A stretch of DNA of 64,000 nt from Cinnamomum chago. Its lineage: Eukaryota > Streptophyta > Magnoliopsida > Laurales > Lauraceae. Positions 240-41,132 of the stretch are shown here, piece by piece. The first letter of the stretch is position 1. Each line of letters begins with the position of its first letter. Location: positions 30,864,501 through 30,928,500 of the forward strand of contig CP142452.1 of NCBI GenBank assembly GCA_038049695.1, given 5' to 3'. The notes beneath the pieces are model-generated. The model saw nothing but the letters and a program-made list of their open reading frames with translations. It did not search any database and was not told the origin of the DNA. Made by a program: the position numbers and the translations under genes.

Positions 240-244
240 CAGGG
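240..244. repeat. Target site duplication, left copy (CAGGG)
   Basis: Five bases directly before the TG start of LTR1; the same bases follow LTR4 at 19785-19789. No such duplication separates the internal units, which shows that they are not three independent insertions. Confidence 0.9.
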
Positions 245-761
245 TGTTAGGTCTTTTGTATTTGCAATTTGATGGATGCATTTGCATATTGGCATCATTT
301 GAATTCACACACATGCATTGATTTAAAATATCTTGAAATCTAGTTTTACCCATGCATAGCTTTTAAGATTTGGAAAAGCTTTTGTTTTATGCATGTTTTG
401 GTTTTAAACTTGGATGCATTGGTTTTAGAACCCAAAACTCTTTTGAAAACCTATTTCCTTGTGCACTACATTTGGAAAATCATCTTGTGTATTTAGGTTT
501 AAGTCTTGCATACATTCTTCACAAAAAGAATCATTTTGTATGCAATTTCATTTGAAAAGAGTTGTATTCAAATCAAGCTAGCCTTTGGTTTTAATCTTGT
601 GAATCATTTTAGGCTTTGTGTTTCTCATGTTTTTAAACATCTTAGAATACCTTAAAACATGTTATTTAAGCTTGATTTAGTGGCCAAAAGATCCACCAAA
701 GAAAAACTTTGAAAATGGAAAAAGTTGGAATTTTGGCCCAGGGACTCGCCCGACAATGTCG

Positions 762-936
762 TCGGTCGACCGAGCCCTGTGTCTCGGTCGACCGAGAACA
801 CTGCAGGGCAAATGGACAGTTTTTGAACTGTTTCAGGCCAACGGTCAGAAAAATGACCGTTGTGCTTTCTCGGTCGACCGAGACCTGTGTCTAGGTCGAC
901 CGAGAACTAGCCGTTGGCAACTTTTTGGCTATAAAG
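762..936 (+). promoter_or_regulatory. LTR1 promoter: four GGTCGACC palindromes and TATA box
   Basis: Palindromic motifs sit at 762-773, 784-795, 870-881 and 893-903, each built on CGGTCGACCG or close to it. The two middle ones extend to 16-bp perfect dyads (TCTCGGTCGACCGAGA). Between them, at 840-861, AACGGTCA and TGACCGTT form an inverted repeat with a six-base loop. A TATA box (TATAAAG) follows at 930-936. Known Sireviruses carry palindrome clusters at the same place in the LTR, thought to be transcription-factor sites; function here is inferred. Confidence 0.75.
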
Positions 937-1574
937 TCCATTCTTTTCCAACCTTTTTCAAGGCTTGAAACTTGAACTTTTGAGAGCATTTTGGAGCCAA
1001 AGAAAGGGGAAGAAGTTGGAAAAGCTAGAGGGCTATTTGGAAATCAATCTCATGAGTTTTTAAAAGGTACATCTTCTAAGTTATTTTGATTTCCATTCAA
1101 ATGAAATTCATGCATGTTCAAATCCTTTGTATTTTCATTTATGCATGATTTCAAGCCCTTAAAGAGTTGTTTTGCAAACTCAATATCTTTCTTGGTAAAT
1201 GAGATTAGTTTGCACACACTCTTATCCTAATCACATATGTTCTTAGACTTTAACTTTCACTCAACTTGTTTATCTTAATTCTTCAAAGTTGTTTGAATCT
1301 TTTATGTGATTAGTTTTCTCTTCAATCATCATTTTATAAACCTTGATTTTAAAATGCATCATGCATTCATTTAAAAGCTTCATTGTTAAAATTGATTGAA
1401 GAAACTCATACATACACTTTGTGCACACACTTTAGTTTATTTTAGTGTATGTTTGTAATTGGAATTTCATTTTCCTATTAGCCTATTTAAGAGGCAAATT
1501 CCATTGTGCTTAAATTGTAATCTCTTAGAGTGATCTTTTGTAAAGACACCTTCTTAGAGAAATCCTCATTTGTA

Positions 1575-1810
1575 AAGGTTATTGCTTAGCCTTTGAAAAG
1601 CAACTTGTAAGGTTATTGCTTAGCCTAAGAAAAGCATATTGTAAGGTTATTGCTTAGCCTAAGAAAAGCATATTGTAAAGGTTATTGCTTAGCCTCTAAA
1701 AGCACATTGATAGGTTATTGCTTAGCCTTGAAAAGCATCTTGTAAAGGTTGTTGTTGAGCCTTAGAAAAACAACATTGTTAGGGTTATTGCTTAGCCTTT
1801 GAAAAAGCAT
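1575..1810 (+). repeat. LTR1 array of seven ~33-bp inverted-repeat units
   Basis: Seven units share the core GGTTATTGCTTAGCCT and end in AAAGCA or a variant. Each unit is a short stem around an AGCC loop. Unit 1 pairs TTGCTT (1582-1587) with AAGCAA (1598-1603). Unit 6 has changed both arms: GTTGTT (1751-1756) pairs with AACAAC (1769-1774). The array lies downstream of TATA, so it would be in the transcript. Confidence 0.85.
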
Positions 1811-2074
1811 ACTTAGTGGAAATCCGGTGGGGTGATTGGATCACAAGCCGGTAGTGGATGTAGGCACGTTGGCCGAACCACTATAAACATTGGTGTTGTG
1901 GTGCATGCTATGTGGTGATTGTATTTGTATTAGCTTCCGCATTTTGTTTGTTAATCATCACATGTGACTAGTTTATGCTAAGAATTTAAAATTGGTTTAA
2001 ATTGGTCATAGTTGTAGCACACCCTATTCACCCCCCCCCCCCCTCTAGGGTTAGGATCCTCGTGGACTTTCAAT

Positions 2075-2087
2075 TGGTATCAGAGCC
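2075..2087 (+). other. Primer binding site, initiator methionine tRNA (unit A)
   Basis: TGGTATCAGAGCC, two bases after LTR1, is complementary to the 3' end of plant initiator methionine tRNA and would prime minus-strand DNA synthesis. Confidence 0.9.
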
Positions 2088-2188
2088 AAGTGCTCTATCC
2101 CTTAGGATCAAGTGTTTTGGAACTCTTGATTAGGTGTAAAAACCTAGAGTTAAAACCCTAGAGTTGTGCTTATTTGAAAATCATTAGA

Positions 2189-3733
2189 ATGGACTCCACT
2201 AGGCTAGACTTTGTAGATTCTTCTAGACCCCTCAATCTTCCTTCTTTTGGAGTTTCAAACTCTCAAACTAATGAAAATCAATTTGATCCAAAAGAAGAAG
2301 AAAATGAATATAATGAAGAAGACCTTCAACAAGCTTTTGAAGAATTATATGAAATATCCTTAAAGCTTGAAAAGAAAAACAAAAGTTTAAGGGAAGAATC
2401 TAAAAACCTAAACAAAGAGCTAGCATCTTCAAAAGATGAACTTAGAGAGAAAGAAGAAGTAATAAAATGTCTAGACTCTAAGTTCATGATCTCTTTAAAT
2501 AATCTATCTAACATTCAAGATGAACTAAAAGAATTAAAGATGGATTATGATAATGTCAATAAGGAAAATCTAAAACAAAGAGATCAATTACAAAGGCAAG
2601 ATAAAGACTTTAACAATCTTGAATCTAAATTGACTATCTCTAAGGAAAATTTATCTAATACTCAAAACGAATTAAATGAGATTAAGATAAATTGTGATGA
2701 GCTTACAAATGAAAATTTGAACCTAAGAGATACAATTAAAAAACAAGATAAAGACTTTAACAACTTAGAAGCCAAGTTGATTAAAAGTAAGTTAAAATCA
2801 CAAGAACTTGGATCTAATATTGTTAATGAACTTAAACATGAATTAAAACTTGCCAATGAAGAGCTAAGCAAATATAAGGAAATTGAATATGAACTTTCAA
2901 AAGTTAAAAATGAAAATTCAATCCTTATAACCAAAGTCACTCAACTTGAAAACAATAAACAAAAGTATGAGTGCAAGTTTACCCAAAGTGAAGAGAAACT
3001 TGAAAAATTATTCAAATTGGGTAAATCTCATGGAGATAGGACGGGTATTGGATTTAATAGGAATATATCTTATGACCCTAAATTCACCAACACTTTTGTG
3101 AAAGGTGAGTCCTCATTCTCTAGCACTCACACTTCTTTGCCCATGTCTAAATGTAATTATTGTGGCATTGAAGGACACTTTAGGTTTGAGTGCAAACTAA
3201 GAAAGAGAAGCCATGTGTCTAAACCCATCTTTGAACTCAAAAATGGAAAATCAAACTTGAAGGGTAAGACACTAAAAATCAAGGAAAACTCCAAAAAGAC
3301 TAAACAAGTTAAATCCTTTAAAATGGAGTCTCCTAAAATAGATTCTAAAAAGCTTAAACAAGTTAAATCAAGCTTGAAAGAATCTAAGAACAAAAAGCTT
3401 CTCAATCTATCTCCCTTATATGAACCAATGAAAGAACTTTTGAAGAAAGTTGCTAAGTTAAATCTAAAATTCAAAAGTCAAGTAAAGGGAGAAAGTAAGA
3501 AGAAAAGAAAAGTGAAACAATCCCCAAAGAAACAAACTCGCCAACATCAAAAGACTATTCACCATTCTAAGCCAAATTTAGTAAAATCTAAATATCATGG
3601 TGATAAGTTTAAATTGAAAATTTATCAAGTTAAATCTCCTATAGTTGGTGAGAATTCCAAGATAGATCTCAAAGTTCAACCCTCCCAAGACCTTAGGTGG
3701 ATTCCTAAAGTTATTTACCTAGACAAACCTTAG
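2189..3733 (+). CDS. Gag-like protein, Sirevirus multimer unit A
   Basis: An open frame of 514 residues from the ATG at 2189; the frame is open a few codons further upstream but without an ATG. Residues about 40-285 are heptad-rich, full of Leu, Lys, Glu and Asn, and predict a long coiled coil. A CCHC zinc knuckle (C-x2-C-x4-H-x4-C) lies at 3152-3193, residues 322-335. The last 170 residues are very Lys-rich and probably bind nucleic acid. Coiled coil, knuckle and basic tail in this order fit the C-terminal half of Sirevirus Gag; I do not see the N-terminal UBN2-type Gag domain. It would assemble or bind element RNA in the cytoplasm. No pol frame follows. The same frame occurs in the other two units, so the gene looks whole and young. 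Confidence 0.8.
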   Translation: MDSTRLDFVDSSRPLNLPSFGVSNSQTNENQFDPKEEENEYNEEDLQQAFEELYEISLKLEKKNKSLREESKNLNKELASSKDELREKEEVIKCLDSKFMISLNNLSNIQDELKELKMDYDNVNKENLKQRDQLQRQDKDFNNLESKLTISKENLSNTQNELNEIKINCDELTNENLNLRDTIKKQDKDFNNLEAKLIKSKLKSQELGSNIVNELKHELKLANEELSKYKEIEYELSKVKNENSILITKVTQLENNKQKYECKFTQSEEKLEKLFKLGKSHGDRTGIGFNRNISYDPKFTNTFVKGESSFSSTHTSLPMSKCNYCGIEGHFRFECKLRKRSHVSKPIFELKNGKSNLKGKTLKIKENSKKTKQVKSFKMESPKIDSKKLKQVKSSLKESKNKKLLNLSPLYEPMKELLKKVAKLNLKFKSQVKGESKKKRKVKQSPKKQTRQHQKTIHHSKPNLVKSKYHGDKFKLKIYQVKSPIVGENSKIDLKVQPSQDLRWIPKVIYLDKP

Positions 3734-6148
3734 GGTCTTGAACCTCATTGACCAACCTACTCTTTATTAGTTAAATCACTTTGTTGGTCATGATTGCATT
3801 TGCATTTTGTTTCTTTTAGTTAGATTTCTTAAAATGCATTGCTTCTTTATGATCATTTGATTTTGGTTTCATGCACCATTCTAAGTTACATGTCATGGTT
3901 TTCAAAATCATTTGATTATAATTTCATCATGTTTGATTTGTCTTTTGCACACATATGTCTTGCATTGCATTTCTTTACATGATCAATTGATTGTGATTTC
4001 AAAAGCTTTCATAGCTAGACTCTTCATGATCAATTGTTGAATCATTTGTGTTTATGTCATAGTAAGATTATTTGAACAAATGATTTGAATCAATTCAAGT
4101 TTTCCATGGATTTATAAGTTATACTTTTATATGGAGAACATTGTTTTGAAAAATCAACTTGTATGTGTTTTAATGAAGTTATATCTTTTCAAATACAATG
4201 TTGATAATTGATCTTCAAAATCATTCCTTTATGCTCATTGTTGGATTTTGTTTTTCAAAATGATTTGAAGATTGTTTTGAATGGAAATGCTTTTTAATCT
4301 CATTAGTTATATTCATCTAAGCATGTTCCATTATTCTCATTTCCTTTTTCTTTTGGTTTCATTATCTTTAGAAATGGAAATGTATGTTGTTTGCATCTTT
4401 GCTTATTTAGTTATTCTTTTTATATGCAAATGACTTTTGGTTCCATGTATGGTTGTGAACTTGTAATTTTTGTAGAAACCATACTAGAACCCAAATCCAT
4501 CCTCTATGTCTTCTAGTCATTTCTTTTAATGGATGGTTATGATGTTGATTCATGTATACCTTCTTAATGTTGTCATCTCTATATATGTTTCAACTTCATA
4601 ATAGTGTTCTTGATCATATGAACCTCTTTGAAATCCATTCCTTGTATTTCATAGTTATATCTCTTGTTTGATGGATATCTTAGTGTTGAATTCATATGAT
4701 CTAGACACTTTGGAAATTGCATGCATTACAAAGCTTTATCCTTTTGCATTGCAATTTGCCTTGTTCATCACTATGCTCTTTAGGAATATCATTAAAAGTG
4801 ATGAATATGCATTTATGATGCTTGATGGTAGTTTATCACATCCTTGCTTTTACTCATGTTATCATATTCAATTGGTTTCATTTGGTATAATGTTCCATTG
4901 ATTTCATATCCAATTGATATCTTATCTTGTGTATGTGATAGACCTTGTGTGCTTTGGACTAATCTTCATAGTTATATAATTGTTCCACGTCACACACCAT
5001 TAGCATCATAATGCTCATGATTGCCACCTCTTTTTGCTCTCATAGGTAAATCTCATGACCACCATGTTTATGTGTTAATAATATTGGTTGGTTATTATTT
5101 GAGGTTGGCTTCATGATTGAATTTCATTTCACTCTTTCATGCACTTTAATAGTCATATTTATTGATTGAATGAAATGAGTTCAAAACTTACATAGCATAT
5201 GATTTTCATAAGTAATATTGATTGATGCTATGTTTGAGTAAACCCCATATCATGGATAGCTCTAATTTGGATTTTTCCTAATAAGTAACATTCTTGAATC
5301 CATTTTAGAGTGATTATGTTAATAGTCATATCCTTTAATCTCAATTGATATGTTTGTTTCAATTGATATCCATGATTGCTTCTCTCATTTGTCCTAGCTC
5401 TCTTTTGGCAATTTGATCATATTGAGCTTAATAGTTAAATGAATCTAATCCTTTCCTTGAAGTTGACCCTCAATTGGTTAAACCATCTTCTTCTTGCACC
5501 TAATAGTTAAATCTTTGTCAAAAGTTTGACAAAAGAAGAGAATGGATTGAGGGGGAGTGTAAACCTTCATAGGAAGTATTAGTTTGATCAAATTCACCCT
5601 TGGATTGCCCTTGAGCCCTTAGAGATAACTTCCATACATGATAGCCTGTTATGAATTTCATTTTCGATTTCATTTGTTAACAGGTGCTACTAAAGGTATT
5701 CTTCTTGTCTCATGTGTGTAGGTACCTTTGCAATTTAATGTCAAAGGGGGAGAGAGAGTTCAAGTGTGACTCAAAGATCTCCTACTCATCAAAGGGGGAG
5801 AGATTTCGAGAGTTCAAGTACTCGAAGATCTCCTATCCATCAAAGGGGGAGAAAGCTTTCAAGTTCTCAAGAGGAGAAAGAAGCATGGTCAAAGGGGGAG
5901 AGCAATTAGAAGAAAGAAAGCTTGGAGCTAAAGAAGATGCTTGGCCATAGAGAGGAAGATGAGAAGAAAGCTTGAAGAATGATCAAGCACCAAGCATCAA
6001 GAAGATTGAAGAAAAGAGCCCAAGAGCCCAAGCTAAGAGAAGAAGCATCCAACAAGATTTCAAGACTTGTCAAGCTAAGGGGGAGCTAAAGACTTTGTGT
6101 GAAAATTCTATGATGAGTAAGTTGCCATCAAATTGCAAAGGGGGAGAT
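3734..6148 (+). other. Non-coding part of internal region A, ending in the polypurine cluster
   Basis: About 2.4 kb of AT-rich sequence between gag and LTR2 without protease, integrase, reverse transcriptase or RNase H. Short frames here (for example at 4668 and 5684) have no recognisable domain. Segments such as the one around 5460-5535 match the second Sirevirus at about 42.2-42.3 kb on the other strand, so the stretch is family sequence rather than foreign filler. Confidence 0.7.
5742..6148 (+). repeat. Cluster of polypurine tracts, unit A
   Basis: AAAGGGGGAGA-type tracts recur at about 5743-5754, 5791-5802, 5842-5853 and 5891-5902, with weaker ones near 5548 and 6076. The final tract at 6137-6148 directly abuts LTR2 and is the expected plus-strand primer. 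Repeated tracts upstream of the 3' LTR are a known Sirevirus trait. Confidence 0.75.
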
Positions 6149-6665
6149 TGTTAGGTCTTGTGTATTTGCAATTTGATGGATGCATTTGCATATTGGCATC
6201 ATTTGAATTCACACACATGCATTGATTTAAAATATCTTGAAATCTAGTTTTACCCATGCATAGCTTTTAAGATTTGGAAAAGCTTTTGTTTTATGCATGT
6301 TTTGGTTTTAAACTTGGATGCATTGGTTTTAGAACCCAAAACTCTTTTGAAAACCTATTTCCTTGTGCACTACATTTGGAAAATCATCTTGTGTATTTAG
6401 GTTTAAGTCTTGCATACATTCTTCACAAAAAGAATCATTTTGTATGCAATTTCATTTGAAAAGAGTTGTATTCAAATCAAGCTAGCCTTTGGTTTTAATC
6501 TTGTGAATCATTTTAGGCTTTGTGTTTCTCATGTTTTTAAACATCTTAGAATACCTTAAAACATGTTATTTAAGCTTGATTTAGTGGCCAAAAGATCCAC
6601 CAAAGAAAAACTTTGAAAATGGAAAAAGTTGGAATTTTGGCCCAGGGACTCGCCCGACAATGTCG

Positions 6666-6840
6666 TCGGTCGACCGAGCCCTGTGTCTCGGTCGACCGAG
6701 AACACTGCAGGGCAAATGGACAGTTTTTGAACTGTTTCAGGCCAACGGTCAGAAAAATGACCGTTGTGCTTTCTCGGTCGACCGAGACCTGTGTCTAGGT
6801 CGACCGAGAACTAGCCGTTGGCAACTTTTTGGCTATAAAG
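6666..6840 (+). promoter_or_regulatory. LTR2 palindrome cluster and TATA box
   Basis: Same as the LTR1 cluster, shifted by 5904 bp. It lies in the middle of the array, so it could drive a unit-length transcript starting inside the multimer. Confidence 0.72.
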
Positions 6841-7478
6841 TCCATTCTTTTCCAACCTTTTTCAAGGCTTGAAACTTGAACTTTTGAGAGCATTTTGGAG
6901 CCAAAGAAAGGGGAAGAAGTTGGAAAAGCTAGAGGGCTATTTGGAAATCAATCTCATGAGTTTTTAAAAGGTACATCTTCTAAGTTATTTTGATTTCCAT
7001 TCAAATGAAATTCATGCATGTTCAAATCCTTTGTATTTTCATTTATGCATGATTTCAAGCCCTTAAAGAGTTGTTTTGCAAACTCAATATCTTTCTTGGT
7101 AAATTAGATTAGTTTGCACACACTCTTATCCTAATCACATATGTTCTTAGACTTTAACTTTCACTCAACTTGTTTATCTTAATTCTTCAAAGTTGTTTGA
7201 ATCTTTTATGTGATTAGTTTTCTCTTCAATCATCATTTTATAAACCTTGATTTTAAAATGCATCATGCATTCATTTAAAAGCTTCATTGTTAAAATTGAT
7301 TGAAGAAACTCATACATACACTTTGTGCACACACTTTAGTTTATTTTAGTGTATGTTTGTAATTGGAATTTCATTTTCCTATTAGCCTATTTAAGAGGCA
7401 AATTCCATTGTGCTTAAATTGTAATCTCTTAGAGTGATCTTTTGTAAAGACACCTTCTTAGAGAAATCCTCATTTGTA

Positions 7479-7714
7479 AAGGTTATTGCTTAGCCTTTGA
7501 AAAGCAACTTGTAAGGTTATTGCTTAGCCTAAGAAAAGCATATTGTAAGGTTATTGCTTAGCCTAAGAAAAGCATATTGTAAAGGTTATTGCTTAGCCTC
7601 TAAAAGCACATTGATAGGTTATTGCTTAGCCTTGAAAAGCATCTTGTAAAGGTTGTTGTTGAGCCTTAGAAAAACAACATTGTTAGGGTTATTGCTTAGC
7701 CTTTGAAAAAGCAT
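7479..7714 (+). repeat. LTR2 inverted-repeat unit array
   Basis: Seven units, no differences from the LTR1 array seen by eye. Confidence 0.85.
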
Positions 7715-7980
7715 ACTTAGTGGAAATCCGGTGGGGTGATTGGATCACAAGCCGGTAGTGGATGTAGGCACGTTGGCCGAACCACTATAAACATTGGTGT
7801 TGTGGTGCATGCTATGTGGTGATTGTATTTGTATTAGCTTCCGCATTTTGTTTGTTAATCATCACATGTGACTAGTTTATGCTAAGAATTTAAAATTGGT
7901 TTAAATTGGTCATAGTTGTAGCACACCCTATTCACCCCCCCCCCCCCCCTCTAGGGTTAGGATCCTCGTGGACTTTCAAT

Positions 7981-7993
7981 TGGTATCAGAGCC
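7981..7993 (+). other. Primer binding site (unit B)
   Basis: Same 13 bases, two bases after LTR2. Confidence 0.9.
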
Positions 7994-8094
7994 AAGTGCT
8001 CTATCCCTTAGGATCAAGTGTTTTGGAACTCTTGATTAGGTGTAAAAACCTAGAGTTAAAACCCTAGAGTTGTGCTTATTTGAAAATCATTAGA

Positions 8095-9639
8095 ATGGAC
8101 TCCACTAGGCTAGACTTTGTAGATTCTTCTAGACCCCTCAATCTTCCTTCTTTTGGAGTTTCAAACTCTCAAACTAATGAAAATCAATTTGATCCAAAAG
8201 AAGAAGAAAATGAATATAATGAAGAAGACCTTCAACAAGCTTTTGAAGAATTATATGAAATATCCTTAAAGCTTGAAAAGAAAAACAAAAGTTTAAGGGA
8301 AGAATCTAAAAACCTAAACAAAGAGCTAGCATCTTCAAAAGATGAACTTAGAGAGAAAGAAGAAGTAATAAAATGTCTAGACTCTAAGTTCATGATCTCT
8401 TTAAATAATCTATCTAACATTCAAGATGAACTAAAAGAATTAAAGATGGATTATGATAATGTCAATAAGGAAAATCTAAAACAAAGAGATCAATTACAAA
8501 GGCAAGATAAAGACTTTAACAATCTTGAATCTAAATTGACTATCTCTAAGGAAAATTTATCTAATACTCAAAACGAATTAAATGAGATTAAGATAAATTG
8601 TGATGAGCTTACAAATGAAAATTTGAACCTAAGAGATACAATTAAAAAACAAGATAAAGACTTTAACAACTTAGAAGCCAAGTTGATTAAAAGTAAGTTA
8701 AAATCACAAGAACTTGGATCTAATATTGTTAATGAACTTAAACATGAATTAAAACTTGCCAATGAAGAGCTAAGCAAATATAAGGAAATTGAATATGAAC
8801 TTTCAAAAGTTAAAAATGAAAATTCAATCCTTATAACCAAAGTCACTCAACTTGAAAACAATAAACAAAAGTATGAGTGCAAGTTTACCCAAAGTGAAGA
8901 GAAACTTGAAAAATTATTCAAATTGGGTAAATCTCATGGAGATAGGACGGGTATTGGATTTAATAGGAATATATCTTATGACCCTAAATTCACCAACACT
9001 TTTGTGAAAGGTGAGTCCTCATTCTCTAGCACTCACACTTCTTTGCCCATGTCTAAATGTAATTATTGTGGCATTGAAGGACACTTTAGGTTTGAGTGCA
9101 AACTAAGAAAGAGAAGCCATGTGTCTAAACCCATCTTTGAACTCAAAAATGGAAAATCAAACTTGAAGGGTAAGACACTAAAAATCAAGGAAAACTCCAA
9201 AAAGACTAAACAAGTTAAATCCTTTAAAATGGAGTCTCCTAAAATAGATTCTAAAAAGCTTAAACAAGTTAAATCAAGCTTGAAAGAATCTAAGAACAAA
9301 AAGCTTCTCAATCTATCTCCCTTATATGAACCAATGAAAGAACTTTTGAAGAAAGTTGCTAAGTTAAATCTAAAATTCAAAAGTCAAGTAAAGGGAGAAA
9401 GTAAGAAGAAAAGAAAAGTGAAACAATCCCCAAAGAAACAAACTCGCCAACATCAAAAGACTATTCACCATTCTAAGCCAAATTTAGTAAAATCTAAATA
9501 TCATGGTGATAAGTTTAAATTGAAAATTTATCAAGTTAAATCTCCTATAGTTGGTGAGAATTCCAAGATAGATCTCAAAGTTCAACCCTCCCAAGACCTT
9601 AGGTGGATTCCTAAAGTTATTTACCTAGACAAACCTTAG
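8095..9639 (+). CDS. Gag-like protein, unit B
   Basis: The 514-residue protein is the same as that of unit A, residue for residue. ATG at 8095, zinc knuckle at 9058-9099. Confidence 0.8.
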   Translation: MDSTRLDFVDSSRPLNLPSFGVSNSQTNENQFDPKEEENEYNEEDLQQAFEELYEISLKLEKKNKSLREESKNLNKELASSKDELREKEEVIKCLDSKFMISLNNLSNIQDELKELKMDYDNVNKENLKQRDQLQRQDKDFNNLESKLTISKENLSNTQNELNEIKINCDELTNENLNLRDTIKKQDKDFNNLEAKLIKSKLKSQELGSNIVNELKHELKLANEELSKYKEIEYELSKVKNENSILITKVTQLENNKQKYECKFTQSEEKLEKLFKLGKSHGDRTGIGFNRNISYDPKFTNTFVKGESSFSSTHTSLPMSKCNYCGIEGHFRFECKLRKRSHVSKPIFELKNGKSNLKGKTLKIKENSKKTKQVKSFKMESPKIDSKKLKQVKSSLKESKNKKLLNLSPLYEPMKELLKKVAKLNLKFKSQVKGESKKKRKVKQSPKKQTRQHQKTIHHSKPNLVKSKYHGDKFKLKIYQVKSPIVGENSKIDLKVQPSQDLRWIPKVIYLDKP

Positions 9640-12054
9640 GGTCTTGAACCTCATTGACCAACCTACTCTTTATTAGTTAAATCACTTTGTTGGTCATGAT
9701 TGCATTTGCATTTTGTTTCTTTTAGTTAGATTTCTTAAAATGCATTGCTTCTTTATGATCATTTGATTTTGGTTTCATGCACCATTCTAAGTTACATGTC
9801 ATGGTTTTCAAAATCATTTGATTATAATTTCATCATGTTTGATTTGTCTTTTGCACACATATGTCTTGCATTGCATTTCTTTACATGATCAATTGATTGT
9901 GATTTCAAAAGCTTTCATAGCTAGACTCTTCATGATCAATTGTTGAATCATTTGTGTTTATGTCATAGTAAGATTATTTGAACAAATGATTTGAATCAAT
10001 TCAAGTTTTCCATGGATTTATAAGTTATACTTTTATATGGAGAACATTGTTTTGAAAAATCAACTTGTATGTGTTTTAATGAAGTTATATCTTTTCAAAT
10101 ACAATGTTGATAATTGATCTTCAAAATCATTCCTTTATGCTCATTGTTGGATTTTGTTTTTCAAAATGATTTGAAGATTGTTTTGAATGGAAATGCTTTT
10201 TAATCTCATTAGTTATATTCATCTAAGCATGTTCCATTATTCTCATTTCCTTTTTCTTTTGGTTTCATTATCTTTAGAAATGGAAATGTATGTTGTTTGC
10301 ATCTTTGCTTATTTAGTTATTCTTTTTATATGCAAATGACTTTTGGTTCCATGTATGGTTGTGAACTTGTAATTTTTGTAGAAACCATACTAGAACCCAA
10401 ATCCATCCTCTATGTCTTCTAGTCATTTCTTTTAATGGATGGTTATGATGTTGATTCATGTATACCTTCTTAATGTTGTCATCTCTATATATGTTTCAAC
10501 TTCATAATAGTGTTCTTGATCATATGAACCTCTTTGAAATCCATTCCTTGTATTTCATAGTTATATCTCTTGTTTGATGGATATCTTAGTGTTGAATTCA
10601 TATGATCTAGACACTTTGGAAATTGCATGCATTACAAAGCTTTATCCTTTTGCATTGCAATTTGCCTTGTTCATCACTATGCTCTTTAGGAATATCATTA
10701 AAAGTGATGAATATGCATTTATGATGCTTGATGGTAGTTTATCACATCCTTGCTTTTACTCATGTTATCATATTCAATTGGTTTCATTTGGTATAATGTT
10801 CCATTGATTTCATATCCAATTGATATCTTATCTTGTGTATGTGATAGACCTTGTGTGCTTTGGACTAATCTTCATAGTTATATAATTGTTCCACGTCACA
10901 CACCATTAGCATCATAATGCTCATGATTGCCACCTCTTTTTGCTCTCATAGGTAAATCTCATGACCACCATGTTTATGTGTTAATAATATTGGTTGGTTA
11001 TTATTTGAGGTTGGCTTCATGATTGAATTTCATTTCACTCTTTCATGCACTTTAATAGTCATATTTATTGATTGAATGAAATGAGTTCAAAACTTACATA
11101 GCATATGATTTTCATAAGTAATATTGATTGATGCTATGTTTGAGTAAACCCCATATCATGGATAGCTCTAATTTGGATTTTTCCTAATAAGTAACATTCT
11201 TGAATCCATTTTAGAGTGATTATGTTAATAGTCATATCCTTTAATCTCAATTGATATGTTTGTTTCAATTGATATCCATGATTGCTTCTCTCATTTGTCC
11301 TAGCTCTCTTTTGGCAATTTGATCATATTGAGCTTAATAGTTAAATGAATCTAATCCTTTCCTTGAAGTTGACCCTCAATTGGTTAAACCATCTTCTTCT
11401 TGCACCTAATAGTTAAATCTTTGTCAAAAGTTTGACAAAAGAAGAGAATGGATTGAGGGGGAGTGTAAACCTTCATAGGAAGTATTAGTTTGATCAAATT
11501 CACCCTTGGATTGCCCTTGAGCCCTTAGAGATAACTTCCATACATGATAGCCTGTTATGAATTTCATTTTCGATTTCATTTGTTAACAGGTGCTACTAAA
11601 GGTATTCTTCTTGTCTCATGTGTGTAGGTACCTTTGCAATTTAATGTCAAAGGGGGAGAGAGAGTTCAAGTGTGACTCAAAGATCTCCTACTCATCAAAG
11701 GGGGAGAGATTTCGAGAGTTCAAGTACTCGAAGATCTCCTATCCATCAAAGGGGGAGAAAGCTTTCAAGTTCTCAAGAGGAGAAAGAAGCATGGTCAAAG
11801 GGGGAGAGCAATTAGAAGAAAGAAAGCTTGGAGCTAAAGAAGATGCTTGGCCATAGAGAGGAAGATGAGAAGAAAGCTTGAAGAATGATCAAGCACCAAG
11901 CATCAAGAAGATTGAAGAAAAGAGCCCAAGAGCCCAAGCTAAGAGAAGAAGCATCCAACAAGATTTCAAGACTTGTCAAGCTAAGGGGGAGCTAAAGACT
12001 TTGTGTGAAAATTCTATGATGAGTAAGTTGCCATCAAATTGCAAAGGGGGAGAT
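9640..12054 (+). other. Non-coding part of internal region B with polypurine cluster
   Basis: Same as the matching part of unit A. Its polypurine tracts lie at about 11648-11808 and 12043-12054. Confidence 0.7.
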
Positions 12055-12571
12055 TGTTAGGTCTTGTGTATTTGCAATTTGATGGATGCATTTGCATATT
12101 GGCATCATTTGAATTCACACACATGCATTGATTTAAAATATCTTGAAATCTAGTTTTACCCATGCATAGCTTTTAAGATTTGGAAAAGCTTTTGTTTTAT
12201 GCATGTTTTGGTTTTAAACTTGGATGCATTGGTTTTAGAACCCAAAACTCTTTTGAAAACCTATTTCCTTGTGCACTACATTTGGAAAATCATCTTGTGT
12301 ATTTAGGTTTAAGTCTTGCATACATTCTTCACAAAAAGAATCATTTTGTATGCAATTTCATTTGAAAAGAGTTGTATTCAAATCAAGCTAGCCTTTGGTT
12401 TTAATCTTGTGAATCATTTTAGGCTTTGTGTTTCTCATGTTTTTAAACATCTTAGAATACCTTAAAACATGTTATTTAAGCTTGATTTAGTGGCCAAAAG
12501 ATCCACCAAAGAAAAACTTTGAAAATGGAAAAAGTTGGAATTTTGGCCCAGGGACTCGCCCGACAATGTCG

Positions 12572-12746
12572 TCGGTCGACCGAGCCCTGTGTCTCGGTCG
12601 ACCGAGAACACTGCAGGGCAAATGGACAGTTTTTGAACTGTTTCAGGCCAACGGTCAGAAAAATGACCGTTGTGCTTTCTCGGTCGACCGAGACCTGTGT
12701 CTAGGTCGACCGAGAACTAGCCGTTGGCAACTTTTTGGCTATAAAG
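12572..12746 (+). promoter_or_regulatory. LTR3 palindrome cluster and TATA box
   Basis: Unchanged copy of the LTR2 cluster; position and spacing are kept. Confidence 0.72.
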
Positions 12747-13384
12747 TCCATTCTTTTCCAACCTTTTTCAAGGCTTGAAACTTGAACTTTTGAGAGCATT
12801 TTGGAGCCAAAGAAAGGGGAAGAAGTTGGAAAAGCTAGAGGGCTATTTGGAAATCAATCTCATGAGTTTTTAAAAGGTACATCTTCTAAGTTATTTTGAT
12901 TTCCATTCAAATGAAATTCATGCATGTTCAAATCCTTTGTATTTTCATTTATGCATGATTTCAAGCCCTTAAAGAGTTGTTTTGCAAACTCAATATCTTT
13001 CTTGGTAAATTAGATTAGTTTGCACACACTCTTATCCTAATCACATATGTTCTTAGACTTTAACTTTCACTCAACTTGTTTATCTTAATTCTTCAAAGTT
13101 GTTTGAATCTTTTATGTGATTAGTTTTCTCTTCAATCATCATTTTATAAACCTTGATTTTAAAATGCATCATGCATTCATTTAAAAGCTTCATTGTTAAA
13201 ATTGATTGAAGAAACTCATACATACACTTTGTGCACACACTTTAGTTTATTTTAGTGTATGTTTGTAATTGGAATTTCATTTTCCTATTAGCCTATTTAA
13301 GAGGCAAATTCCATTGTGCTTAAATTGTAATCTCTTAGAGTGATCTTTTGTAAAGACACCTTCTTAGAGAAATCCTCATTTGTA

Positions 13385-13620
13385 AAGGTTATTGCTTAGC
13401 CTTTGAAAAGCAACTTGTAAGGTTATTGCTTAGCCTAAGAAAAGCATATTGTAAGGTTATTGCTTAGCCTAAGAAAAGCATATTGTAAAGGTTATTGCTT
13501 AGCCTCTAAAAGCACATTGATAGGTTATTGCTTAGCCTTGAAAAGCATCTTGTAAAGGTTGTTGTTGAGCCTTAGAAAAACAACATTGTTAGGGTTATTG
13601 CTTAGCCTTTGAAAAAGCAT
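13385..13620 (+). repeat. LTR3 inverted-repeat unit array
   Basis: Seven units, same as in LTR2. Confidence 0.85.
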
Positions 13621-13886
13621 ACTTAGTGGAAATCCGGTGGGGTGATTGGATCACAAGCCGGTAGTGGATGTAGGCACGTTGGCCGAACCACTATAAACAT
13701 TGGTGTTGTGGTGCATGCTATGTGGTGATTGTATTTGTATTAGCTTCCGCATTTTGTTTGTTAATCATCACATGTGACTAGTTTATGCTAAGAATTTAAA
13801 ATTGGTTTAAATTGGTCATAGTTGTAGCACACCCTATTCACCCCCCCCCCCCCCCTCTAGGGTTAGGATCCTCGTGGACTTTCAAT

Positions 13887-13899
13887 TGGTATCAGAGCC
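13887..13899 (+). other. Primer binding site (unit C)
   Basis: Same 13 bases, two bases after LTR3. Confidence 0.9.
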
Positions 13900-14000
13900 A
13901 AGTGCTCTATCCCTTAGGATCAAGTGTTTTGGAACTCTTGATTAGGTGTAAAAACCTAGAGTTAAAACCCTAGAGTTGTGCTTATTTGAAAATCATTAGA

Positions 14001-15545
14001 ATGGACTCCACTAGGCTAGACTTTGTAGATTCTTCTAGACCCCTCAATCTTCCTTCTTTTGGAGTTTCAAACTCTCAAACTAATGAAAATCAATTTGATC
14101 CAAAAGAAGAAGAAAATGAATATAATGAAGAAGACCTTCAACAAGCTTTTGAAGAATTATATGAAATATCCTTAAAGCTTGAAAAGAAAAACAAAAGTTT
14201 AAGGGAAGAATCTAAAAACCTAAACAAAGAGCTAGCATCTTCAAAAGATGAACTTAGAGAGAAAGAAGAAGTAATAAAATGTCTAGACTCTAAGTTCATG
14301 ATCTCTTTAAATAATCTATCTAACATTCAAGATGAACTAAAAGAATTAAAGATGGATTATGATAATGTCAATAAGGAAAATCTAAAACAAAGAGATCAAT
14401 TACAAAGGCAAGATAAAGACTTTAACAATCTTGAATCTAAATTGACTATCTCTAAGGAAAATTTATCTAATACTCAAAACGAATTAAATGAGATTAAGAT
14501 AAATTGTGATGAGCTTACAAATGAAAATTTGAACCTAAGAGATACAATTAAAAAACAAGATAAAGACTTTAACAACTTAGAAGCCAAGTTGATTAAAAGT
14601 AAGTTAAAATCACAAGAACTTGGATCTAATATTGTTAATGAACTTAAACATGAATTAAAACTTGCCAATGAAGAGCTAAGCAAATATAAGGAAATTGAAT
14701 ATGAACTTTCAAAAGTTAAAAATGAAAATTCAATCCTTATAACCAAAGTCACTCAACTTGAAAACAATAAACAAAAGTATGAGTGCAAGTTTACCCAAAG
14801 TGAAGAGAAACTTGAAAAATTATTCAAATTGGGTAAATCTCATGGAGATAGGACGGGTATTGGATTTAATAGGAATATATCTTATGACCCTAAATTCACC
14901 AACACTTTTGTGAAAGGTGAGTCCTCATTCTCTAGCACTCACACTTCTTTGCCCATGTCTAAATGTAATTATTGTGGCATTGAAGGACACTTTAGGTTTG
15001 AGTGCAAACTAAGAAAGAGAAGCCATGTGTCTAAACCCATCTTTGAACTCAAAAATGGAAAATCAAACTTGAAGGGTAAGACACTAAAAATCAAGGAAAA
15101 CTCCAAAAAGACTAAACAAGTTAAATCCTTTAAAATGGAGTCTCCTAAAATAGATTCTAAAAAGCTTAAACAAGTTAAATCAAGCTTGAAAGAATCTAAG
15201 AACAAAAAGCTTCTCAATCTATCTCCCTTATATGAACCAATGAAAGAACTTTTGAAGAAAGTTGCTAAGTTAAATCTAAAATTCAAAAGTCAAGTAAAGG
15301 GAGAAAGTAAGAAGAAAAGAAAAGTGAAACAATCCCCAAAGAAACAAACTCGCCAACATCAAAAGACTATTCACCATTCTAAGCCAAATTTAGTAAAATC
15401 TAAATATCATGGTGATAAGTTTAAATTGAAAATTTATCAAGTTAAATCTCCTATAGTTGGTGAGAATTCCAAGATAGATCTCAAAGTTCAACCCTCCCAA
15501 GACCTTAGGTGGATTCCTAAAGTTATTTACCTAGACAAACCTTAG
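14001..15545 (+). CDS. Gag-like protein, unit C
   Basis: The 514-residue protein is the same as that of units A and B. ATG at 14001, zinc knuckle at 14964-15005. Confidence 0.8.
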   Translation: MDSTRLDFVDSSRPLNLPSFGVSNSQTNENQFDPKEEENEYNEEDLQQAFEELYEISLKLEKKNKSLREESKNLNKELASSKDELREKEEVIKCLDSKFMISLNNLSNIQDELKELKMDYDNVNKENLKQRDQLQRQDKDFNNLESKLTISKENLSNTQNELNEIKINCDELTNENLNLRDTIKKQDKDFNNLEAKLIKSKLKSQELGSNIVNELKHELKLANEELSKYKEIEYELSKVKNENSILITKVTQLENNKQKYECKFTQSEEKLEKLFKLGKSHGDRTGIGFNRNISYDPKFTNTFVKGESSFSSTHTSLPMSKCNYCGIEGHFRFECKLRKRSHVSKPIFELKNGKSNLKGKTLKIKENSKKTKQVKSFKMESPKIDSKKLKQVKSSLKESKNKKLLNLSPLYEPMKELLKKVAKLNLKFKSQVKGESKKKRKVKQSPKKQTRQHQKTIHHSKPNLVKSKYHGDKFKLKIYQVKSPIVGENSKIDLKVQPSQDLRWIPKVIYLDKP

Positions 15546-17960
15546 GGTCTTGAACCTCATTGACCAACCTACTCTTTATTAGTTAAATCACTTTGTTGGT
15601 CATGATTGCATTTGCATTTTGTTTCTTTTAGTTAGATTTCTTAAAATGCATTGCTTCTTTATGATCATTTGATTTTGGTTTCATGCACCATTCTAAGTTA
15701 CATGTCATGGTTTTCAAAATCATTTGATTATAATTTCATCATGTTTGATTTGTCTTTTGCACACATATGTCTTGCATTGCATTTCTTTACATGATCAATT
15801 GATTGTGATTTCAAAAGCTTTCATAGCTAGACTCTTCATGATCAATTGTTGAATCATTTGTGTTTATGTCATAGTAAGATTATTTGAACAAATGATTTGA
15901 ATCAATTCAAGTTTTCCATGGATTTATAAGTTATACTTTTATATGGAGAACATTGTTTTGAAAAATCAACTTGTATGTGTTTTAATGAAGTTATATCTTT
16001 TCAAATACAATGTTGATAATTGATCTTCAAAATCATTCCTTTATGCTCATTGTTGGATTTTGTTTTTCAAAATGATTTGAAGATTGTTTTGAATGGAAAT
16101 GCTTTTTAATCTCATTAGTTATATTCATCTAAGCATGTTCCATTATTCTCATTTCCTTTTTCTTTTGGTTTCATTATCTTTAGAAATGGAAATGTATGTT
16201 GTTTGCATCTTTGCTTATTTAGTTATTCTTTTTATATGCAAATGACTTTTGGTTCCATGTATGGTTGTGAACTTGTAATTTTTGTAGAAACCATACTAGA
16301 ACCCAAATCCATCCTCTATGTCTTCTAGTCATTTCTTTTAATGGATGGTTATGATGTTGATTCATGTATACCTTCTTAATGTTGTCATCTCTATATATGT
16401 TTCAACTTCATAATAGTGTTCTTGATCATATGAACCTCTTTGAAATCCATTCCTTGTATTTCATAGTTATATCTCTTGTTTGATGGATATCTTAGTGTTG
16501 AATTCATATGATCTAGACACTTTGGAAATTGCATGCATTACAAAGCTTTATCCTTTTGCATTGCAATTTGCCTTGTTCATCACTATGCTCTTTAGGAATA
16601 TCATTAAAAGTGATGAATATGCATTTATGATGCTTGATGGTAGTTTATCACATCCTTGCTTTTACTCATGTTATCATATTCAATTGGTTTCATTTGGTAT
16701 AATGTTCCATTGATTTCATATCCAATTGATATCTTATCTTGTGTATGTGATAGACCTTGTGTGCTTTGGACTAATCTTCATAGTTATATAATTGTTCCAC
16801 GTCACACACCATTAGCATCATAATGCTCATGATTGCCACCTCTTTTTGCTCTCATAGGTAAATCTCATGACCACCATGTTTATGTGTTAATAATATTGGT
16901 TGGTTATTATTTGAGGTTGGCTTCATGATTGAATTTCATTTCACTCTTTCATGCACTTTAATAGTCATATTTATTGATTGAATGAAATGAGTTCAAAACT
17001 TACATAGCATATGATTTTCATAAGTAATATTGATTGATGCTATGTTTGAGTAAACCCCATATCATGGATAGCTCTAATTTGGATTTTTCCTAATAAGTAA
17101 CATTCTTGAATCCATTTTAGAGTGATTATGTTAATAGTCATATCCTTTAATCTCAATTGATATGTTTGTTTCAATTGATATCCATGATTGCTTCTCTCAT
17201 TTGTCCTAGCTCTCTTTTGGCAATTTGATCATATTGAGCTTAATAGTTAAATGAATCTAATCCTTTCCTTGAAGTTGACCCTCAATTGGTTAAACCATCT
17301 TCTTCTTGCACCTAATAGTTAAATCTTTGTCAAAAGTTTGACAAAAGAAGAGAATGGATTGAGGGGGAGTGTAAACCTTCATAGGAAGTATTAGTTTGAT
17401 CAAATTCACCCTTGGATTGCCCTTGAGCCCTTAGAGATAACTTCCATACATGATAGCCTGTTATGAATTTCATTTTCGATTTCATTTGTTAACAGGTGCT
17501 ACTAAAGGTATTCTTCTTGTCTCATGTGTGTAGGTACCTTTGCAATTTAATGTCAAAGGGGGAGAGAGAGTTCAAGTGTGACTCAAAGATCTCCTACTCA
17601 TCAAAGGGGGAGAGATTTCGAGAGTTCAAGTACTCGAAGATCTCCTATCCATCAAAGGGGGAGAAAGCTTTCAAGTTCTCAAGAGGAGAAAGAAGCATGG
17701 TCAAAGGGGGAGAGCAATTAGAAGAAAGAAAGCTTGGAGCTAAAGAAGATGCTTGGCCATAGAGAGGAAGATGAGAAGAAAGCTTGAAGAATGATCAAGC
17801 ACCAAGCATCAAGAAGATTGAAGAAAAGAGCCCAAGAGCCCAAGCTAAGAGAAGAAGCATCCAACAAGATTTCAAGACTTGTCAAGCTAAGGGGGAGCTA
17901 AAGACTTTGTGTGAAAATTCTATGATGAGTAAGTTGCCATCAAATTGCAAAGGGGGAGAT
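15546..17960 (+). other. Non-coding part of internal region C with polypurine cluster
   Basis: Same as unit A. Polypurine tracts lie at about 17554-17714 and 17949-17960, the last directly before LTR4. Confidence 0.7.
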
Positions 17961-18477
17961 TGTTAGGTCTTGTGTATTTGCAATTTGATGGATGCATTTG
18001 CATATTGGCATCATTTGAATTCACACACATGCATTGATTTAAAATATCTTGAAATCTAGTTTTACCCATGCATAGCTTTTAAGATTTGGAAAAGCTTTTG
18101 TTTTATGCATGTTTTGGTTTTAAACTTGGATGCATTGGTTTTAGAACCCAAAACTCTTTTGAAAACCTATTTCCTTGTGCACTACATTTGGAAAATCATC
18201 TTGTGTATTTAGGTTTAAGTCTTGCATACATTCTTCACAAAAAGAATCATTTTGTATGCAATTTCATTTGAAAAGAGTTGTATTCAAATCAAGCTAGCCT
18301 TTGGTTTTAATCTTGTGAATCATTTTAGGCTTTGTGTTTCTCATGTTTTTAAACATCTTAGAATACCTTAAAACATGTTATTTAAGCTTGATTTAGTGGC
18401 CAAAAGATCCACCAAAGAAAAACTTTGAAAATGGAAAAAGTTGGAATTTTGGCCCAGGGACTCGCCCGACAATGTCG

Positions 18478-18652
18478 TCGGTCGACCGAGCCCTGTGTCT
18501 CGGTCGACCGAGAACACTGCAGGGCAAATGGACAGTTTTTGAACTGTTTCAGGCCAACGGTCAGAAAAATGACCGTTGTGCTTTCTCGGTCGACCGAGAC
18601 CTGTGTCTAGGTCGACCGAGAACTAGCCGTTGGCAACTTTTTGGCTATAAAG
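18478..18652 (+). promoter_or_regulatory. LTR4 palindrome cluster and TATA box
   Basis: Unchanged copy. As the terminal LTR it would, if active, read outward into the flank at 19.8 kb. Confidence 0.7.
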
Positions 18653-19290
18653 TCCATTCTTTTCCAACCTTTTTCAAGGCTTGAAACTTGAACTTTTGAG
18701 AGCATTTTGGAGCCAAAGAAAGGGGAAGAAGTTGGAAAAGCTAGAGGGCTATTTGGAAATCAATCTCATGAGTTTTTAAAAGGTACATCTTCTAAGTTAT
18801 TTTGATTTCCATTCAAATGAAATTCATGCATGTTCAAATCCTTTGTATTTTCATTTATGCATGATTTCAAGCCCTTAAAGAGTTGTTTTGCAAACTCAAT
18901 ATCTTTCTTGGTAAATTAGATTAGTTTGCACACACTCTTATCCTAATCACATATGTTCTTAGACTTTAACTTTCACTCAACTTGTTTATCTTAATTCTTC
19001 AAAGTTGTTTGAATCTTTTATGTGATTAGTTTTCTCTTCAATCATCATTTTATAAACCTTGATTTTAAAATGCATCATGCATTCATTTAAAAGCTTCATT
19101 GTTAAAATTGATTGAAGAAACTCATACATACACTTTGTGCACACACTTTAGTTTATTTTAGTGTATGTTTGTAATTGGAATTTCATTTTCCTATTAGCCT
19201 ATTTAAGAGGCAAATTCCATTGTGCTTAAATTGTAATCTCTTAGAGTGATCTTTTGTAAAGACACCTTCTTAGAGAAATCCTCATTTGTA

Positions 19291-19526
19291 AAGGTTATTG
19301 CTTAGCCTTTGAAAAGCAACTTGTAAGGTTATTGCTTAGCCTAAGAAAAGCATATTGTAAGGTTATTGCTTAGCCTAAGAAAAGCATATTGTAAAGGTTA
19401 TTGCTTAGCCTCTAAAAGCACATTGATAGGTTATTGCTTAGCCTTGAAAAGCATCTTGTAAAGGTTGTTGTTGAGCCTTAGAAAAACAACATTGTTAGGG
19501 TTATTGCTTAGCCTTTGAAAAAGCAT
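19291..19526 (+). repeat. LTR4 inverted-repeat unit array
   Basis: Seven units, same as in LTR2. Confidence 0.85.
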
Positions 19527-19784
19527 ACTTAGTGGAAATCCGGTGGGGTGATTGGATCACAAGCCGGTAGTGGATGTAGGCACGTTGGCCGAACCACTAT
19601 AAACATTGGTGTTGTGGTGCATGCTATGTGGTGATTGTATTTGTATTAGCTTCCGCATTTTGTTTGTTAATCATCACATGTGACTAGTTTATGCTAAGAA
19701 TTTAAAATTGGTTTAAATTGGTCATAGTTGTAGCACACCCTATTCACCCCCCCCCTCTAGGGTTAGGATCCTCGTGGACTTTCA

Positions 19785-27290: not shown

Positions 27291-28620
27291 ATGCCAATCA
27301 GGATTGCATCTCATGCCCATCCCGTCTACATGCTGTTCAAAGACTTTGGTGGTCAAAGGCTTAGTAAATGGATCTGCCAGATTGTCCGCAGAGGCTATCT
27401 TGGTGATAGCAATATCACCTCTCTGCACAATCTCTCTGACCAAGTGATACTTCATCTGTACGTGCTTTTGGCTTTTATGGCTCCTGGGTTCCTTGGACTG
27501 AGCGACTGCCCCGCTATTGTCACAGTAAACTATGAGCGGCTGTCGTGCCAAAGGTACCACTCCAAGTTCCAAAAGGAATCTTTTGAGCCACACTGCTTCC
27601 TTAGCTGCTTCACAAGCCGCTACATATTCAGCCTCAGAAGTGGAGTCAGCGGTATATTCCTGTTTAATACTCATCCAGTTGATAGCTCCTCCGCCAAGCA
27701 TAAACACATAACCAGAAGTAGATTTCCTGGAATCCTTATCTGACATGAAGTCAGAGTCTGTGTATCCGACTGGAATCAGCTCATCACTGCCGTAAATCAA
27801 CATGTAATCTCTAGTTCTTCTCAAGTACTTGAGGATAATTTTACAGCAGTCCAATGGTCAGGACCTGGGTTAGACTGATATCTGCTGACTAAGCCTACTG
27901 CATGACAGATATCCGGTTTAGTACATAGCATAGCGTCCATGAGGCTACCAACAGCCAAAGTGTATGGAATTGCTCTCATTTGCTCCTTTTCCTCTGGGGT
28001 CTTGGGACCCTGATCCTTAGAAAGGTGCACTCCATGCCTGAAAGGTGTGATACCCTTCTTGGAGTCTTGCATAGCAAACTGTACCAGTACCTTATCTATG
28101 TATGCAGCTTGAGATAAGCCAATCATCGTATTTTTCCGGTCTCGATGGAGTTTGATCCCTAGGATGTAACTAGCTTCTCCCAAGTCCTTCATATCAAAAG
28201 TCTTTGCTAACCAAACTTTTACCATTGACAACATTCCTATATCTTTCCCAAGGAGAAGGATGTCGTAGACATATAAAACCAGAAAAACTACCATGTCACC
28301 TTCATTTTTCATGTACACACATGACTCATCCGGATTTTGACTAAAATCAAATGATTTTTTTGCCCGGTCGAAACAGATGTTCCAGCTTCGGGATGCCTGC
28401 TTTAGTCCATAAATGGACATCTGCAGCTTGCAAACTCTTTGCTTTTGGTTACTTGCTATAAAACCGTCTGGCTGCATCACATAGATGTCTTCTTCAAGAT
28501 GACCGCTAAGAAACGCCGTCTTGACATCCATTTGCCAAATCTCGTAATCGAGATGAGCCGCAATGGATAAGAGTATCCGGATGGACTTGAGCATGGCTAC
28601 CGGCGAGAAGGTTTCCTCAT
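27288..28620 (-). pseudogene. Copia-1 reverse transcriptase and RNase H region
   Basis: Reverse transcriptase motifs include [23 protein letters not shown] and a YVYDILLLG active-site region near 28250. RNase H follows with GYTDSDF, SKSTSGYVF-like and CDNSGAV motifs, ending about 27290 close to the polypurine tract. Together these are the catalytic core that copies element RNA into DNA. A fossil; broken. Confidence 0.88.
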
Positions 28621-28636
28621 AATCGATACCCTCTTT

Positions 28637-32645: not shown

Positions 32646-32650
32646 AAACT

Positions 32651-39732: not shown

Positions 39733-39866
39733 TTATGCTTTTCAATAGGCTAAGCAATAACCTTTACAATATGCTTTCCAAGGCTAAGCAATAACCTTAC
39801 ATTGATATTTTTCAAGGCTTAACATCAACCTATACACTATGCTTTTATAGGCTAAGCAATAACCTC
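39733..39866 (-). repeat. Hairpin unit array in Sirevirus-2 3' LTR
   Basis: Four units with the TTGCTTAGCC core on the minus strand. One unit has both arms changed: TTGATGTT (39828-39821) pairs with AATATCAA (39809-39802) with one G-T wobble. Confidence 0.82.
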
Positions 39867-40935: not shown

Positions 40936-41132
40936 TTACCAAAAATAAAACAAAGCATGAAAACATATGATTAAGGAAGGAAGAGCCTACTTGGTGGTTT
41001 AACTTCATTAATCCAAGCTTTAGCTTTCCTAATCATCCCCTTCATCCCTTGGTTCTTTTCCCTTTTGATATGCCTCAATACCTCTCAAGGAGGGGCTTAA
41101 AATTCCCAACTTTTGGCAAGGGAAAGAACTCA

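Follow-up and report, generated by a model that had tools for sequence, protein, structure and literature searches.

Does the tandem series of short inverted repeats in a Sirevirus-type LTR of Cinnamomum chago represent a structure whose pairing is kept by selection, and, if so, what might it do for the element? The window, by which we mean the entire 64,000-nucleotide stretch analysed, is C2:30864501-30928500 of a 1.06-Gb genome. The repeat units, their recurrence across LTR families and the coupled changes of their two arms are direct observations. The arms change together in evolution, which suggests that what selection preserves is the fold, and we consider it likely that the pairing is selected. 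The probable reason is that the element depends on this fold for its own replication. Our best overall explanation, to which we assign an even chance, is a selected tandem stem-loop array that would act in the leader of the genomic RNA, most likely in packaging or dimerisation. Packaging or dimerisation in particular is a tentative prediction. LTRs of this layout are very abundant in the genome.

The LTR in question belongs to a tandem LTR-internal multimer (245-19784) of four LTRs and three internal regions with a 5.9-kb period. The additional LTR copies begin near 6149, 12055 and 17961 (self-blastn), and the pieces of the multimer are 99.7-99.9% identical (blastn). The main features of its first LTR and internal region are as follows.

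245-2072, plus strand: LTR of the multimeric element, about 1828 bp (self-blastn).
740-905, plus strand: Sirevirus palindromic boxes of known type (CGGTCGACCG), in U3, identified in the sequence and separate from the array.
930-935, plus strand: TATA box (TATAAA), a putative promoter, identified in the sequence.
1570-1814, plus strand: the array, about seven units of ~34 bp (Tandem Repeats Finder, 7.1 copies), with arms located in the sequence.
2174-3733, plus strand: a 519-aa Gag-like ORF with a weak match to the CCHC zinc knuckle (PF00098, E 0.0021, under the curated cutoff).

The layout of this LTR is Sirevirus-type: palindromic boxes, TATA box, a poly-C tract at the LTR end and, just beyond the LTR, the primer-binding-site-like sequence TGGTATCAGAGC (sequence inspection). 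The TATA box follows the palindromic boxes, as the available text of Bousios et al. (2010; PMC2829016) describes, and the core of the boxes is the same as that of the Vitis RM in Table 3 of that paper. By eye, the multimer shows candidates for the features listed for Sireviruses, namely RM boxes, a conserved TATA, the poly-C tract with the LTR/internal junction and multiple PPTs. The PPT candidates are AAAGGGGGAGA-like tracts at about 5741-5900, also by eye, and the multimer offers no pol ORF for phylogenetic placement. Its ORF content is gag-like only. The apparent absence of pol is deduced from the ORF list, which has no second ORF of at least 120 aa in the first internal region, and from the other five frames of the internal region, none of which stays free of stop codons for more than 106 aa.

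The array lies about 640 bp downstream of the TATA box and is followed by the primer-binding site at a distance of about 260 bp, which places it in the RNA leader of a TATA-started transcript. Coding constraint was rejected as its cause, since the gag-like ORF begins only downstream of it. The leader (961-2188) contains 17 ATGs ahead of the gag ATG at 2189, and none of them starts within 1450-1857, a span that covers the array.

Tandem Repeats Finder also detects a ~34-bp array in other LTRs of the window. The arrays and units that were compared most closely are listed here.

1581-1603, plus strand: unit 1, with its 5′ arm at 1581-1587, AGCC at 1588-1591 and its 3′ arm at 1598-1603.
1751-1774, plus strand: unit 6, with arms GTTGTT (1751-1756) and AACAAC (1769-1774).
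39734-39865, minus strand: array of the Sirevirus-2 LTR, four units, with the second LTR copy at 44892-45023.
56136-56235, plus strand: three-unit array of the 56-kb LTR fragment, of which the first unit is broken.

A preliminary description had cited five complementary arm pairs, and each of them is present at its place: TTGCTT (1582-1587) with AAGCAA (1598-1603); the arms of unit 6; TTGATGTT (39828-39821) with AATATCAA (39809-39802) on the minus strand in Sirevirus-2; and, in the 56-kb fragment, ATGCTT (56174) with AAGCAT (56193) and AGGTT (56217) with AACCT (56228). Neither arm of the Sirevirus-2 unit carries an insertion: as in the other tabulated units, 7 nt of arm separate GGTT from AGCC. 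The same description took each unit to be an inverted repeat around an AGCC loop. The inverted-repeat units are real and the loop does open with AGCC, but it is longer than these four letters. Taken as everything enclosed by the longest stem, it has 6-13 nt in 42 of 48 haplotypes and 18-22 nt in the remaining 6. A unit reads as a spacer ending in AGGTT, a 7-nt arm, AGCC, a variable loop and a 3′ arm, and 223 of 268 units have UGUA in the 8 nt that precede.GGTT.

The 5′ arms fall into the types ATTGCTT, GTTGTTT/G, GATGTTA/G, TATGCTT, AATGCTT, CATGCTT, GGAGGTT/G and TGAGGTG, plus rarer types. The 3′ arms switch along with them (AAGCA(A/T/C), AAACAAC, AACATC, AAGCATA, AAGCATT, AACCTT). The longest stem has at least 5 bp in 44 of 48 haplotypes. 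It had also been proposed that pairing is kept in the units that were compared closely. This holds in that the arms are complementary across unit types; the full TTGCTT/AAGCAA stem, however, is found in just one of the six TTGCTT units of the window array. AAGCAA occurs only once there, and the other TTGCTT units pair TGCTT with AAGCA and have an outer mismatch.

Whole units of the window array match at 81% (Tandem Repeats Finder), and arms differ between units of one array. In the array layouts printed, each unit type holds its own place within the array and its own pairing, and simple tandem duplication was rejected on these grounds. The arrays of the four multimer LTRs have no differences and were therefore counted once. 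In the 56-kb copy, the first unit (56136-56163) no longer has a 3′ arm, and this is also the case in three sampled LTRs (L092, L093 and L095), one of which (L093) is a duplicated copy of the window's own 56-kb LTR. When the window LTR is compared with the 56-kb copy by blastn, the array gives the best match (E 8e-15), followed by the stretch containing the hairpin H4, described below (5e-11), and the LTR end (6e-4); no further match is better than E 0.09. The array is thus one of the few parts of the LTR that are recognisable between these two families.

To keep the hairpin itself out of the selection, we collected LTRs by means of a motif that lies 3′ of the array, GTGGANGTAGGCAN{2,8}GGCCGAACCAC. 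Exact copies of this motif number 16,262 in the genome (8,272 and 7,990). The sample of 81 LTRs consists of 40 places on contig 1, 27 of the 30 loci of one spacer type, 10 more and four from the window. By spacer and sequence, there are at least four LTR families: TTGA (A), CGTT (B), TGATT (C) and ATTT (D). Three to six units are present in 71 of the 81 LTRs, within a range of one to seven. A strict search yielded 268 units, 140 of them distinct and 48 occurring at two or more loci, where "two or more loci" may include both LTRs of one element or a duplicated segment. Because GGTT/C and A[GT]CC were conditions of this search, their invariance is preset; a looser search gave 286 units. Duplicates of other sampled LTRs or of the window were dropped (L079, L080 and L094, which duplicate L043, L047 and the window), and L001-L008 and L049-L078 were left out of the array tests, as were units too short for them. 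All comparisons are within this one genome; public viral contigs gave no matches for two patterns.

The coupling of the two arms is the central result. When the 3′ arms of 17 arm classes are permuted, none of 20,000 permutations reaches the summed duplex energy of the true partners (-91.6, versus a permuted mean of -46.2). Coarser groupings give 8/5,040 for seven classes, in which one class would fit the partner of another class better, 1/120 for five classes, and 1/24 for four classes, this being the lowest attainable p. Watson-Crick pairs average 5.52 as observed and 4.79 after swapping, with a maximum of 5.12 in 2,000 swaps. Against a tree-based null with an equal number of arm changes, 0 of 1,000 simulations match the data, both for the 48 multi-locus haplotypes (z -3.8) and for all 140 haplotypes (z -3.2). 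The tree for this null was built without the 5′ arm from short sequences (units of at least 28 bases), and the arm changes were placed at random.

These tests bear on the two outcomes that would have counted against the original proposal. The arms covary above both the swap and the tree-based nulls, in our own implementation rather than in R-scape. Gene conversion from a single variant unit is excluded as the explanation, since every main variant type is itself self-complementary and conversion of one variant cannot produce the coupling. The compensatory double changes that had been claimed include clear pair replacements, namely C-G/U-A/G-C at pair 5 and U-A/A-U at pairs 2 and 3, but the independent compensated states are few, about five.

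Pair by pair, the 48 haplotypes show that pairs 3-6 form the core of the stem and that its ends are less well kept. Pair 3 is Watson-Crick in 47/48 (U-A and A-U) and pair 5 in 46/48 (C-G, U-A and G-C), while pair 4 has 40/48 plus 3 G.U and pair 6 has 45/48 plus 2 G.U. Toward the ends, pair 2 has 29/48 plus 5 G.U, pair 1 has 21/47 and pair 7 has 37/48. Position 1 forms no standard pair in 26/47 haplotypes and position 2 none in 14/48, with T.T at pair 2 in 12/48. The mispaired state A.A at pair 2 has only 13 genome matches for the pattern tested, whereas each of the two paired states is frequent in the sample. At pair 5, the genome contains 1,630 matches for C.A and 1,424 for U.G. Among the matches listed, the first arm position is A or T in 24 rows and G in the rest for U.G, and A for C.A (by eye). 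Many of the listed U.G places also occur, by eye, in pairs about 5-6 kb apart, like the two LTRs of one element, as expected if U.G was present at insertion.

Complementarity across unit types therefore exceeds chance, and arm changes are coupled beyond phylogeny in our own implementation and with few independent states; folding energy, by contrast, does not exceed chance. The array has a z of +0.93 relative to shuffled sequences, 163 of 200 of which fold at least as well, and single units have a mean z of -0.33 (48 haplotypes), so that folding energy does not mark the units as structured RNA. The commonest unit on its own folds into a competing hairpin, AGGTTA/TAGCCT, which is incompatible with the covarying stem except as a pseudoknot and whose letters are fixed by the extraction. 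The direction of the wobble pairs suggests an RNA structure only faintly. With the register set on Watson-Crick pairs alone, G.U outnumbers A.C by 25 to 8 in 140 haplotypes, with a single position accounting for 18 of the 25, and by 6 to 0 in 48, with 5 of the 6 at that position. When the register credits G.U, the counts are 35 versus 9 and 11 versus 0 (pairs 2-6). The strand asymmetry is thus weak by G.U versus A.C, and the genome counts at pair 5 have none. We set aside a comparison of sense and antisense duplex energies as uninformative, since energy rules alone produce a difference. A search of window positions 240-2200 against Rfam returned nine matches up to E 5, the lowest at E 0.67 and all far below gathering scores.

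Three further hairpins flank the array.

1481-1495, plus strand: H1, a short hairpin GCCT...AGGC, recognised by eye, with a stem that RNAalifold keeps on 64 distinct segments.
1521-1560, plus strand: H2, a larger two-part hairpin from single-sequence folds, with letters that differ per family.
1852-1883, plus strand: H4, a hairpin TAGTGG..GGC..GCC..CCACTA downstream of the array, with pairing read from the sequence; its core is the search motif.

H2 appears in the folds of part of the printed family A-D sequences and is missing from others (e.g., L017, L023, L043, L047, L048 and L116). In a post hoc swap test, with halves selected by eye after the folds were seen, its own partners were the best of the 24 orders of four families (1/24), and 32 of 40,320 orders did as well for eight loci. 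A per-column test similar to R-scape, restricted to the H1-H2 region, gave nothing significant (best E 0.2, not a helix pair); it used 64 distinct segments of 74 extracted from the 81 LTRs, with few deep lineages and a gappy alignment. H1 and H2 are unrecognisable by sequence when the window LTR is compared with the 56-kb copy.

A hairpin like H4, of the form GTGG-ACGTA-stem-loop-stem-GAA-CCAC, is common to other plant Copia LTRs (L049-L078), where the inner stem is GGC/GCC, GGTG/CACC or GGCAA/TTGCC. We take its internal loop to resemble the sarcin-ricin motif. In these 30 LTRs, no array occurs in the 200 bp upstream of the H4-like hairpin.

Retroviral leaders contain several short stem-loops between the transcription start and the primer-binding site, and nucleocapsid reads unpaired motifs in them. 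The array resembles such a leader in having short stem-loops in this interval, although here a single unit is repeated in tandem and the number of its copies varies. Within Sireviruses, the closest known counterpart is the RM box, likewise a repeated dyad motif with many copies per LTR. As far as the available text of PMC2829016 goes, RM boxes lie upstream of TATA, have 10-20 bp and nearly all share a CGG-CCG core (Table 3); their copies within an element are commonly more than 85% identical, although some published RMs are lower, and the published RM of Tnd-1 also lacks the core. The array, in contrast, is downstream of TATA (1570-1814 versus 930-935), has no CGG-CCG core in the printed units (by eye), this core being present at 740-905 instead, and has loops mostly of 6-13 nt with variable arms. 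We therefore rejected its membership in the RM boxes.

Another related system is the palindromes of maize Sireviruses (Bousios et al. 2016, as cited in the available text of PMC10760457), which are also Copia LTR hairpins with a proposed role at the RNA level. They differ in that their motif, CACCGGAC...GTCCGGTG, belongs to a cis-regulatory region. The BARE element shares with our proposal the idea of cis signals in a plant Copia RNA: according to the available text of PMC3735527, its dimerisation and packaging signals are conserved in a parasitic member that is unable to make Gag. That text describes no tandem stem-loop array; the comparison with BARE is one of descriptions. The preliminary description knew of no account of the array. 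This holds for the literature searched, which leaves most subscription papers outside and in which we found neither the array nor leader RNA structures of this kind. For palindromes in other parts of Sirevirus LTRs, however, good descriptions exist in the available text of PMC2829016 and PMC10760457. Among the matches listed in a literature text search for the motif CCGAACCACG, none has a plant retrotransposon in its title.

We propose that the array forms tandem stem-loops in the 5′ leader RNA of the retrotransposon, between TATA and the primer-binding site. Each unit would consist of a spacer (UGUA..AGGUU), a variable stem, usually of 5-7 bp, and a loop opening with AGCC. Selection would hold the stem paired while its letters drift, and the unpaired letters would be what is read. 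The pairing would act in the RNA, the reader might be the element's own Gag, through its putative zinc knuckle, or an RNA partner, and the array may thereby aid packaging or dimerisation of the genomic RNA. The multimer has a gag-like ORF only and yet retains the array, as would be expected of a cis-acting signal that works with proteins provided in trans. This retention, the leader position and the analogy to BARE (PMC3735527, available text) are why we favour packaging or dimerisation. The array could also help to explain the spread of members with only a gag-like gene. An extended version is more doubtful: H1, H2, the array and H4 might form one leader domain in which stems are rewritten between families and unpaired UGUA, AGGUU and AGCC are kept, i.e., a packaging or dimerisation signal read by Gag, with modular copy number and support from covariation. 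A structure that survives changes of its letters points to a functional site, and it defines arm swaps. Several observations stand against our best explanation: the weak folding, the competing hairpin, the lack of a standard pair at positions 1 and 2 in part of the haplotypes, the lineage with a broken first unit, the small number of independent states and the weak strand test.

Coupled arms could also arise without selection, if template switching or repair turns imperfect inverted repeats into perfect ones and thereby alters the two arms at a single stroke. Template switching is common during reverse transcription, and a process of this kind would yield compensated arms from few independent events. 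However, mismatched states persist (the T.T at pair 2), single-step intermediates circulate (U.G at pair 5, and GTTGTTT with ACATC) and the array survives across families, and we consider a mutational artefact unlikely. Selection might instead act on DNA, with the units serving as protein-binding dyads or extruded DNA hairpins like other Sirevirus palindromes and RNA being irrelevant. The weak strand asymmetry would fit, as would the wealth of palindromic boxes in Sirevirus LTRs (PMC2829016, available text). Since the loop varies in length and the arm letters change, the units are unlike a fixed binding site, and the array is downstream of TATA, so a DNA-level element also seems improbable. 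That the transcribed hairpins feed small RNAs for host silencing, as has been suggested for the LTR palindromes of maize Sireviruses, is highly improbable. Copia LTR hairpins are linked to small RNAs in the available text of PMC10760457, but the hairpins there are strong and have a different main motif, while those of the array are weak. Silencing would, moreover, select for loss of the hairpins and not for their upkeep.

Two further alternatives keep the array in the RNA and give it another use. If R reaches past the array, the repeated UGUA spacers would be a far-upstream polyadenylation element, and the hairpins would merely present them. UGUA is a cleavage-factor site, and given its frequency in the unit spacers it could equally serve 3′-end formation. 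Nevertheless, poly(A)-site mapping from genomic copies, by the motif plus an A-tract, gave no matches, and in the Sire model of PMC3601003 (available text) R has about 10 bp and lies close after the TATA box. With an R this short and next to TATA, the array would be in U5 and absent from the 3′ end. The Sire set of that study is distinct from another Sirevirus clade, so the model may not apply here; we regard a role in 3′-end formation as having a small chance. Translation control, in which the stems would steer ribosomes by shunting or blocking in a leader with many upstream ATGs, would agree with the 17 ATGs of the window leader and the ATG-free span over the array. Families B, C and D have an ATG inside the 5′ arm of units, however, so the array is not kept free of ATGs, and the stems are weak, which makes this use quite unlikely. 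The selected stem-loop array in the genomic-RNA leader thus remains our preferred reading.

We now note other properties of the window. A second copy of both the multimer and the 56-kb LTR lies at C2:30257111-30312192, about 609 kb from the first, with their spacing kept within about 300 bp. The copies are 99.97% (L001/L003) and 100% (L093/L094) identical over the stretches compared. Either a segment of at least 55 kb was duplicated recently or the assembly contains it twice. One Sirevirus-2 LTR contains about 830 bp (40268-41098) that are missing from the other LTR and that include an internal repeat (40355-40666 and 40640-40972). Pieces of the Copia pol ORF of another element occur on the minus strand at 27821-33651, with reverse transcriptase, SH3-like, Pol beta-barrel and gag-pre-integrase domains.
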